DNA of 64,000 bases, from assembly GCA_013043165.1 (NCBI GenBank), contig JABDOQ010000082.1, positions 62,001 through 126,000 of the forward strand. Direction: 5' to 3'. Origin of the DNA: Woeseiaceae bacterium (GTDB taxonomy: Bacteria > Pseudomonadota > Gammaproteobacteria > Steroidobacterales > Woeseiaceae). Under the pieces are notes generated by a model that was not told the DNA's origin, did not search any database, and worked only from the letters and a program-made list of their open reading frames with translations. Position numbers and translations under genes: made by a program. This document shows, one piece after another, positions 39,223 to 42,402 of the stretch (position 1 is the stretch's first letter; every line of letters begins with the position of its first letter).

Positions 39223-39882
39223 CTAGAAGTTATAGATGAAGGCAATGGAGACAACCGGCCAGGCTTTGAAGTCGCTCATTTCGTCCTCAAGTTCAAGGCG
39301 TTCGGCTTCGAGCGCGTCCTGAAAAACCTGCTGGCCCGCCGCGAATCCATCGGCCTGCAAACTGACTGTCGGTTCACCCTGCCAGAGTACGCCGAAGTCG
39401 AAGTTCAGACCGACCTTGCCCAGGACTTCGAAGTCGTAGCCGACACCAAGATAGGGCGCAGTACTGGCGAATGACGTCAAGCTTTGCAGGGAACCAACAT
39501 CAGCAGGGCTGAAGGTGTTCCCGCCGATTTCGAAGTTGGCACCGGCGGTATCCTGGCTGATCATGCCAAATTCATTGTTGTTCGAAAACGCTCCGGCGGT
39601 TACGCGGAACGGGCTCAGCGGGAAACGAAAGTTTCCTGTGGCGTAATACGTGTCCAACGCGAACGTGGCGTCATAATTGATGCCAGCCTGCGAGCCATCG
39701 TCGTCGTATTCGTAGCTGTTGGCGCCAACGCGTACGTCCAGCCAGGGCAATAGACTCCAGCGTCCTTCGACACCGAGTCCAAGCGTGCCGGCCTTCAGTC
39801 CAATACCAAAATCGGCACTGGCCGTACCGAACGCAGCCAGTGCGAGCGCGGCCAGCGCCACCTTCATAAATGCTGTTTTCAT
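39223..39882 (-). CDS. Outer-membrane beta-barrel protein
   Basis: Signal peptide; alternating strands; C-terminal ...VVSIAFIYNF. Confidence 0.78.
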   Translation of the reverse strand: MKTAFMKVALAALALAAFGTASADFGIGLKAGTLGLGVEGRWSLLPWLDVRVGANSYEYDDDGSQAGINYDATFALDTYYATGNFRFPLSPFRVTAGAFSNNNEFGMISQDTAGANFEIGGNTFSPADVGSLQSLTSFASTAPYLGVGYDFEVLGKVGLNFDFGVLWQGEPTVSLQADGFAAGQQVFQDALEAERLELEDEMSDFKAWPVVSIAFIYNF

Positions 39883-39959: not shown

Positions 39960-40097
39960 GCTCCGAAAATTTTGCCGGTTTATGTCAAATCTCCCCAATC
40001 TGCCGGATTTTGCGGGCGGCCGCAGCGCGTTGGCAGGGGTAGCTTGAGATGGCGCAGGACGCGCGTCAGTAAAAAGGCATTCAACAAGGAGATGGAA

Positions 40098-40277
40098 ATG
40101 CGTGAACTAACGATGAGTGAAGTTGAGTTTGTATCGGGTGGGTGCACACCGGGCAGCAGTAATACATTCGGCGGAATTCGAGATACCTACGGTTTGGGTC
40201 AGGACATTATCAATATCTATGAAGGACTCATTGAGGCGACTTCGTACGTCATCGAACGCGTCGCAAACGCTCTGTGA
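40098..40277 (+). CDS. 59-aa double-glycine-leader (microcin/class II bacteriocin-like) peptide
   Basis: MRELTMSEVEFVSGG leader, 44-aa core CTPGSSNTFGG...; AAGGAG SD with 6-nt spacing; own terminator. Confidence 0.75.
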   Translation: MRELTMSEVEFVSGGCTPGSSNTFGGIRDTYGLGQDIINIYEGLIEATSYVIERVANAL

Positions 40278-40282
40278 CACGT

Positions 40283-41110
40283 TCAGCGCCGCGGCGGTTG
40301 CTCGTCGCGGCGCTTTTTTGCGTCGCCTGTCAGGCGGACGACTAAAATTGTCGCGATAAGCAGCATTGCCGTCGCCGCAATGCCAATACGCCACAGCGGC
40401 AGATCCGATATCGGTGGATTCCAGATTCCATGCAGGCAGCGCCAGTCGACCTGTACCAAGCCGTTGAAGGTGGCGTGTGAAATCAGCGACGGCCAAAGCG
40501 ACTGCGAGTTCCAGTACTGGATTCCGAACACGACTCCCGCGACAAAGGTGAACAACCAGTGTGAGGGTGGATGAAAGATGGCAAAAACTGTCGCCGACAC
40601 GGCGATCGCAACGACGGGCCCGCCGCGATGCAGCGAAGACTGGACATAGGCACGATTCGTCACTTCTTCGACAATCGGTATCATGATGACCATCACCAGA
40701 AATCCGACCATCGCCACCTTTGCTGGCGGGCACTGGAACCAGAATAACGGCCCTTCGATCGCGAACGGATCATTGTCGCGGTAAACGCCGAACGCAACTC
40801 CGGCGATCGTCATACTCCACCACAGGACTCTGATTAGCATGCCGACAGCAATGGCACGCAGAACTGTGGAAAGTGAGAGCGTTGACGGCCGAAACTGCTC
40901 CAGGAGAAACGCCTTGTCCAGGCGCAACATCGGCAACATCAGGACCAGCAAGAGCGGAAACACCACCAGGTAGGACAGGTCAGCCGCGTGGTCTTTTTGC
41001 AGGCCTTCGCGTAGCAGCTCCATCTGCAGCCACGAGCGCGCGAACAGAGCGGCTGTGGTAGCAACAATGACGGCAATTGCGTTCTTGCCAGAGGGACGAC
41101 TGACTTCCAT
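40283..41110 (-). CDS. CPBP family intramembrane glutamic endopeptidase
   Basis: IVEEVTNRAYVQ (EExxxR), FAIFHPPSH, LISHATFN motifs; multi-TM. Confidence 0.87.
   Translation of the reverse strand: MEVSRPSGKNAIAVIVATTAALFARSWLQMELLREGLQKDHAADLSYLVVFPLLLVLMLPMLRLDKAFLLEQFRPSTLSLSTVLRAIAVGMLIRVLWWSMTIAGVAFGVYRDNDPFAIEGPLFWFQCPPAKVAMVGFLVMVIMIPIVEEVTNRAYVQSSLHRGGPVVAIAVSATVFAIFHPPSHWLFTFVAGVVFGIQYWNSQSLWPSLISHATFNGLVQVDWRCLHGIWNPPISDLPLWRIGIAATAMLLIATILVVRLTGDAKKRRDEQPPRR
40285..40319 (+). terminator. Rho-independent terminator after peptide gene
   Basis: AGCGCCGCG gcggttgctcgt CGCGGCGCTTTTTTG. Confidence 0.88.
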
Positions 41111-41187: not shown

Positions 41188-42402
41188 CTAGAGACCTGGT
41201 ATGTCCGTAATGGTCGGTTCAACCATCTTGTCCCGGCCCCATTTCAGAAATAGTGACGCGCGTGCGTCCGGGTCGATGTTTACTTTGTCCAGATCACCTT
41301 GCACATGCGGCAAAGCCATAAGGCGCTTGTCCATGACATAAAACCAAAGCCACGGGATGTAGGCCATTACGTACATACCAAAGTACCCGTTGGGCAGTGA
41401 GGGCAGATCCTCAAAATGCCGCAAGGACTGGTAGCGCCTGAGCGGATGGGCATGATGATCGGAGTGCCGTTCGAGGTGAAACATCACGAGGTTGCTCAGT
41501 ATGTGATTGCTGTTCCACGAGTGATGCGGCTGGCAGCGTTCGTATCGGCCGCGGACGTCCCGCTGTCTCAACAGTCCGTAGTGCTCGACGTAGTTGGCGC
41601 TGGTCAGCTGCCAGTAGGCAAATACGTTGTGGAGAAACAGAAACGGTACGACCGACCAGCCAAATAACCACAGCAATATAGCGCTGAGGGCTGCCGTCAT
41701 GGCATACGACTGCAGAATAGCGTTACTGCGGTGCCATACGGATTTGCCACGAAGCGTCAGGCGTTCTTTTTCTATTTGCCACGCCCTCCGAAACGCAGAG
41801 GGTATTTCGCGCCGAGCAAACTTGTAAATACTCTCGCCCATCCGGGAACTTGCCGGATCAGCGGGTGTGGACACGTCCCTGTGATGGCCCCGATTATGCT
41901 CAATCGAAAAGTGACCGTACGCGGGGATAGCCAGTACGACTTTGGCCAGCAGCTTCTCGATCTTCGAGTTTTTGTGGCCGAGTTCATGCCCGGTGTTTAT
42001 TGCGAGGCCCGATGTCAGCCCGGCAGTGATCGCGATTAGTACGAAAGCCCACCAGCTGACCGACGCAGACGTGGCGTACCAGACACATCCGACAAGCGCA
42101 ATAAGATGCAGCGGCACCACGGCATATGTCAGCCAGCGATAGTACCGGTCCTGATCGAGCTGCATGACAATTTCTTCGGGTGGGTTGTTGCGGTCTTCGC
42201 CGATCGCCCAATCGAGCAACGGTGCAATAATGTAGCTCGTTGCGAACGGCAGCAAAAACCACAGTTCGTTGCCTGTCTTGAAATGCAGCCAGATCGCCAG
42301 AAACGGCTGCAGCGGGTATACGACTGACAGCAGCCAAAGCCAGCGTTTGCGATCAACGTAATGTAACTCGCCGTCAGGTAATACTGCGGTGTAGCCTTTC
42401 AT
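41188..42402 (-). CDS. alkB: Alkane 1-monooxygenase
   Basis: His boxes HELGHK, EHNRGHH, NYVEHYGLLR, LERHSDHHAHP; 6-TM layout. Confidence 0.93.
   Translation of the reverse strand: MKGYTAVLPDGELHYVDRKRWLWLLSVVYPLQPFLAIWLHFKTGNELWFLLPFATSYIIAPLLDWAIGEDRNNPPEEIVMQLDQDRYYRWLTYAVVPLHLIALVGCVWYATSASVSWWAFVLIAITAGLTSGLAINTGHELGHKNSKIEKLLAKVVLAIPAYGHFSIEHNRGHHRDVSTPADPASSRMGESIYKFARREIPSAFRRAWQIEKERLTLRGKSVWHRSNAILQSYAMTAALSAILLWLFGWSVVPFLFLHNVFAYWQLTSANYVEHYGLLRQRDVRGRYERCQPHHSWNSNHILSNLVMFHLERHSDHHAHPLRRYQSLRHFEDLPSLPNGYFGMYVMAYIPWLWFYVMDKRLMALPHVQGDLDKVNIDPDARASLFLKWGRDKMVEPTITDIPGL

Follow-up and report, generated by a model that had tools for sequence, protein, structure and literature searches.

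A GG-leader peptide gene and a CPBP protease gene form a one-site cassette in Woeseiaceae, with a remote C39 exporter: a candidate split microcin-like system

The window, i.e. the whole 64,000-nucleotide stretch of Woeseiaceae DNA analysed here, contains a short gene (PEP) for a peptide precursor with a double-glycine (GG) leader, which is convergent with a gene encoding a CPBP intramembrane protease. The two are enclosed by genes for an outer-membrane protein (OMP) and a hydroxylase (Table 1). The coordinates of the PEP open reading frame include its stop codon. A second in-frame ATG (position 40092) is absent from the relatives inspected, whose PEP start corresponds to position 40098.

Table 1 Features of the PEP locus (positions within the window).
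Feature	Position	Strand	Basis or remark
Outer-membrane protein (OMP) gene	39223..39882	-	Weak CarO-like match; left cassette edge
5'-UTR hairpin GCGC-AGGAC-GCGC with CAGGACG, putative CsrA/RsmA-type site	40052..40064	+	Covarying stem, literature motif
Shine-Dalgarno AAGGAG, containing second GGA	40086..40091	+	Sequence
PEP, GG-leader peptide precursor, 59 aa	40098..40277	+	ORF, homologues, alignment of 42
CPBP (Rce1-like/Abi) intramembrane protease, 275 aa	40283..41110	-	PF02517, motifs, AF2 model
Intrinsic terminator hairpin, 13-pair stem	40285..40314	+	T-run after, to about 40320
FA_desaturase-domain (AlkB-like) hydroxylase gene	41188..42402	-	Right cassette edge

The PEP leader comprises residues 1–15 (MRELTMSEVEFVSGG) and the predicted mature peptide residues 16–59 (44 aa, CTPGSSNTFGGIRDTYGLGQDIINIYEGLIEATSYVIERVANAL). 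One genome collection yielded 15 relatives from other genomes, several of them labelled Woeseiaceae, and PEP was present in 51 of 107 genomes of this family. Five leader positions (Met1, Arg2, Leu4, Glu8 and Gly14) are identical in all 42 aligned precursors, and the 15-residue leader ends with GG in 22 and with GA in 20 cases. It thus has the form given in the definition of class II microcins, which includes an N-terminal signal of 15–18 aa ending with GG or GA (PMC10233263). A scan of the genome with the leader pattern, allowing up to 2 mismatches, gave 11 matches, of which only that in PEP was exact. The GG leader recognized in the earlier note is therefore well founded, being conserved in relatives and the only exact match in the genome; the further GG-leader peptides whose presence that note had suggested checking were found neither elsewhere in the genome nor near its C39 exporter on contig C63. 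The PEP of the window had no match in NCBIfam or Pfam and no similarity to a verified microcin core, and the Pfam MccV model matched 10 of 16 PEP family members, weakly (best E=0.0018).

Beyond the leader, each of the 42 precursors contains exactly one cysteine, and the motif YEG...S..IERVA varies hardly at all. The AlphaFold model of PEP consists of a single confident long helix (residues 30–58), whose hydrophobic moment is 0.48, compared with 0.19 for shuffled sequences (p=0.001). The mature peptide is thus predicted to be a short flexible head with one cysteine, followed by an amphipathic helix at the C-terminus. With a mean charge of -5.5 the mature peptide is acidic, and its sequence is conserved across genera of the family. 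The uncorrected pN/pS values (helix 0.24, leader 0.36, linker 0.50) are rough, because synonymous sites are near saturation, and their low level indicates that the mature part is under purifying selection. In genome G034, a second, diverged PEP copy lies on the opposite side of the CPBP gene (L172:2416-2613, minus strand), at a locus where the adjoining hydroxylase gene was not detected.

A helix of this kind together with one cysteine in 42/42 precursors would permit dimers or assemblies, and PEP might be secreted to serve as a structural, adhesive or otherwise accessory component, with CPBP as its quality-control protease; some C39 exporters, such as HetC, have developmental roles (PMC10986499). 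The pattern of leader and exporter is, however, microcin-like, and among the neighbouring genes none for surface or matrix proteins recurs except the flanking OMP, which is itself kept in genomes devoid of PEP; we regard this explanation as improbable.

Several RNA elements surround the PEP coding sequence. The stem of the 5' hairpin is compensated in relatives (GCAC/GTGC in G046, GGTCC/GGACC in G040 and CCGC/GCGG in G027), and the sequence CAGGANG, described as the repeat of CsrB (PMC7652899), occurs in 27 of 42 PEP leader RNAs, as against 0.9 expected from shuffles. GGA is present within the last 14 nt before the ATG in 42/42 loci. The locus of the window therefore has the two sequence hallmarks of a CsrA/RsmA target, i.e. 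a GGA in a hairpin loop and another at the Shine-Dalgarno sequence; in a part of the PEP family the 5' hairpin contains no GGA in its loop. A csrA gene is present in the genome, and, judging from these motifs, the PEP leader RNA may act as a CsrA/RsmA switch. No sigma-70 consensus promoter was found upstream of PEP, where TAGCTT (40040-40045) is at most a possible -10 element, and Rfam gave only sub-threshold matches in the PEP region. A stable hairpin follows the PEP stop codon in 38 of 42 loci, the stems differing in a compensated manner. The earlier note had described PEP as an expressed-looking monocistron with a good Shine-Dalgarno sequence and a strong private terminator. The AAGGAG sequence and the monocistronic design bear this out, and the terminator is indeed strong; it is private only in part, since the stem falls within the 3'-terminal part of CPBP, the gene that runs towards PEP.

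The assignment of this convergent neighbour to the CPBP family, also made in the earlier note, is clear (PF02517, E=3.3e-19, 69.4 bits against a cut-off of 22.4). The protein carries the motifs EEVTNR (148–153) and FAIFH (176–180) as well as His212, and the corresponding EExxxR, FxxxH and histidine, which characterize the family, are invariant in 42/42 CPBP proteins. The same is true of Cys127 and Cys225. In the AF2 model (pLDDT 89.6) these cysteines lie beside two short strands (120–125 and 226–231), which suggests a Cys127-Cys225 disulfide on the outer face of the protein. The nearest solved fold is SpdC, a weak match (E=0.0038, probability 1.00, TM only 0.42), and the MroQ model also matches weakly. 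In genomes G102 and G091 (loci L091 and L102, respectively) the tblastn match of CPBP spans one in-frame stop, which may mean that CPBP ends earlier there or that the assembly is in error.

A CPBP protein beside a peptide can act in signal maturation instead of immunity, as exemplified by SilX, deletion of which abolished bacteriocin production, not immunity (PMC9298176). PEP might accordingly be a conserved cell-to-cell signal (pheromone), trimmed or cut by CPBP during sensing or maturation in a SilX-like manner. Apart from this precedent, the invariant catalytic residues of CPBP and a mature peptide that is acidic and kept by purifying selection across genera speak for such a role. Against it, no receptor or sensor gene accompanies the cassette or the exporter among the loci compared, and the presence of PEP is patchy even between close sisters (present in G037, absent from G038 and G101). 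We rank this signalling role second, as unlikely.

The relationship between PEP and CPBP was examined at the OMP locus, which was compared in 71 further genomes. The gene order in relatives is OMP(-) PEP(+) CPBP(-) hydroxylase(-) DUF5658(+) sucA(+), as far as the contigs reach. At each OMP locus with PEP, both PEP and CPBP are located between OMP and the hydroxylase; at those without PEP, both are absent and OMP is usually joined directly to the hydroxylase, so that the two flanking genes are kept. In a few PEP-less loci this interval is occupied by a rubredoxin-like ORF or by unrelated genes. None of the loci spanning the site had just one of the two genes. Within the 107 genomes, CPBP was found in 50, the same set as PEP except for G021, whose PEP is truncated by a contig end, and one genome outside the family (G145) also has the OMP-PEP-CPBP-hydroxylase locus. 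The recurrence of the PEP-CPBP pair is far beyond chance, and the link that the earlier note had drawn from a single locus extends across the family. As both genes are either present or absent at the site, the pair constitutes one cassette at one site, although joint loss by a single deletion is partly expected because the genes are adjacent. It is highly probable that PEP and CPBP form a functional unit. A mobile-element origin of the cassette was considered; the OMP-hydroxylase intervals inspected showed no transposase. The rubredoxin-like ORF beside the AlkB-like hydroxylase was seen in some genera (L188:1570-1731 and L161:2226-2393).

No C39 exporter had been seen in the window, and export through a remote transporter had been postulated. 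The genome search proposed for this purpose identified its single catalytically intact C39-ABC transporter (PCAT; 709 aa) on contig C63, with an adjoining HlyD adaptor (420 aa). This PCAT has the Cys/His/Asp triad (residues 30/103/119) of microcin exporters, and several OEP-family proteins, i.e. of TolC type, are encoded in the genome. HlyD lies beside PCAT in 56 of 59 genomes and is the only gene that recurs widely at exporter loci, where neither a modification enzyme nor another third gene was found to recur; a methyltransferase adjoins the C63 PCAT and is not among the recurring neighbours. Likewise, no modification gene recurs at PEP loci, which supports, indirectly, the earlier description of the peptide as unmodified. 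The PCATs of PEP-positive genomes belong to several deep lineages and are located at loci other than PEP; the PEP-exporter link is thus functional rather than positional. Next to these PCATs, the leader filter retained no GG peptide apart from a weak ORF in G080. Their diversity, with HlyD as the sole wide neighbour, suggests that the exporter is exchangeable and that it is the leader which counts.

Three other C39 proteins were rejected as exporters: (i) a 253-aa protein on contig C97, whose best match is the amyloid maturation peptidase FapD, (ii) the apparent exporter of the PEP-less genome G085, the C39 domain of which is devoid of the catalytic Cys and His, and (iii) a second C39 transporter of G011, in which these residues are missing too. 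The FapD-like C39 peptidase (L002:1291-2052) belongs to a putative operon for functional amyloid (Fap-like), in which repeat proteins rich in Asn/Asp/Ser are encoded upstream, and the degenerate-C39 ABC transporters of G011 and G085 are related (L250:4959-7100 and L252:4935-7106).

When only intact C39 exporters were counted, 48 of the 107 genomes had both PEP and an exporter, 3 had PEP only, 11 the exporter only and 45 neither (Fisher p=8e-16). Because related genomes are not independent, a tree-based test was also used, with a tree built from four flanking proteins (72 rows). PEP changed state at least 15 times on this tree, and of 12 independent pairs differing in PEP, about 9.5 showed the exporter changing in parallel and 0.2 showed the reverse (median p of about 0.004). 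As for the exporter-only genomes, 8 of the 11 are uninformative at the PEP site, as OMP had no match or, for G106, the contig stops next to it, and G086 and G002 have a GG peptide of their own adjoining PCAT. The remaining exception is G026, whose exporter is intact and whose site is readable; no PEP was found in it, and no local GG peptide. Conversely, in G059 PEP is present and no exporter was found (this genome is 80% complete). The GG peptides of G086 and G002 are unlike PEP and have glycine-rich cores (L194:7584, plus strand, and L195:8928, minus strand). Genome G156, from another family of the order, encodes a GG peptide with a glycine-zipper-like core, of which only the leader is PEP-like (L254:3836-4090).

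It could be argued that PEP and CPBP are bystanders, gained and lost together by position, and that the correlation with the exporter reflects ancestry or genome incompleteness, as PEP adjoins CPBP and many of the genomes are incomplete MAGs. Yet the unlinked exporter follows the repeated state changes of PEP in independent pairs, contigs spanning the site reveal true absence, and the PEP and CPBP proteins are both conserved, so that this explanation is disfavoured and scarcely credible. Export of the peptide by the remote C39 exporter is very probable, in agreement with the remote transporter proposed earlier. Among the reasons to abandon its reading, the earlier note had named a genome without any C39-type exporter and a leader not conserved in relatives; the genome does have such an exporter, and the leader is shared by relatives.

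Since genomes with PEP and CPBP nearly always have an exporter elsewhere, the whole looks like a real split microcin-like system. We assign a probability of roughly 0.55 to the reading that it is a split-locus, class-II-microcin-like secretion system in which CPBP serves immunity or peptide handling; the earlier microcin-like interpretation is thereby partly supported. In this system, a short monocistronic mRNA would yield the 59-aa precursor, with the 5' hairpin and the GGA-containing Shine-Dalgarno sequence as a putative CsrA/RsmA switch. Cleavage behind GG/GA and export of the 44-aa peptide would fall to the remote C39-ABC transporter, working with HlyD and a channel of TolC type, as is known of this family, and CPBP, situated in the inner membrane, would probably cut or capture the peptide at the membrane and so protect the producer. 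That the peptide is antagonistic, with CPBP as an immunity or handling protein, is the likeliest role at about even odds. The acidic, conserved mature peptide and the size of CPBP (275 aa) were counted against the microcin reading. An obligatory neighbouring membrane protein, as expected of an adjacent immunity protein, is present, but it is of this larger size and a CPBP. The system is not filed as a class II microcin, because similarity to verified cores is lacking and activity and immunity are putative. Quite unlikely, in turn, is a CsrA-gated peptide signalling system common to the whole family of these Gram-negative marine bacteria, in which a GG-leader pheromone would leave by interchangeable remote C39 exporters and be matured or sensed by a dedicated CPBP with an extracytoplasmic cysteine pair.

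Microcin searches rely on similarity to known microcins, proximity of an exporter or small immunity neighbours, and would miss the PEP system, which is present in roughly half the species sampled from a family common in marine sediments. Patterns of gain and loss can connect an orphan GG peptide with a remote exporter, and this strict pairing of a peptide with CPBP in a Gram-negative bacterium makes the role of CPBP beside exported peptides (immunity or maturation) directly testable.

Of the known systems, class IIa microcins of the MccV type comprise a peptide, an immunity protein, an HlyD-type adaptor, a C39-ABC exporter and TolC. The PEP system resembles them in its 15-residue GG/GA leader, recognized in part by the Pfam MccV model, in the C39-ABC exporter with HlyD adaptor and in the membrane-protein gene adjoining PEP. 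It differs from them in that (i) the peptide and exporter loci are unlinked, (ii) the partner of PEP is a 275-aa CPBP protease, compared with immunity proteins of 51–216 aa in verified microcins, (iii) the mature part of PEP is acidic and is conserved throughout the family, in contrast to the high variability of verified microcin cores (PMC9746304), and (iv) peptide and partner form a convergent pair at a fixed chromosomal site. A motif-intact CPBP beside a GG-leader peptide is shared with Gram-positive class II bacteriocin loci containing CPBP/Abi (CAAX-like) proteins, but the host is Gram-negative, there is no operon and two invariant cysteines flank two short predicted strands. SilX-SilCR of Streptococcus anginosus and MroQ of Staphylococcus likewise tie a CPBP to a secreted peptide; the peptide is different here, and no sensor kinase or regulator was found. 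Finally, a hairpin site combined with a second GGA at the Shine-Dalgarno sequence is the arrangement of CsrA/RsmA-controlled glgC (PMC7652899), which PEP resembles in that a short hairpin with GGA in its loop closely precedes a Shine-Dalgarno sequence that itself contains GGA, and from which it differs in that CsrA binding is putative and the loop GGA is confined to a part of the family.
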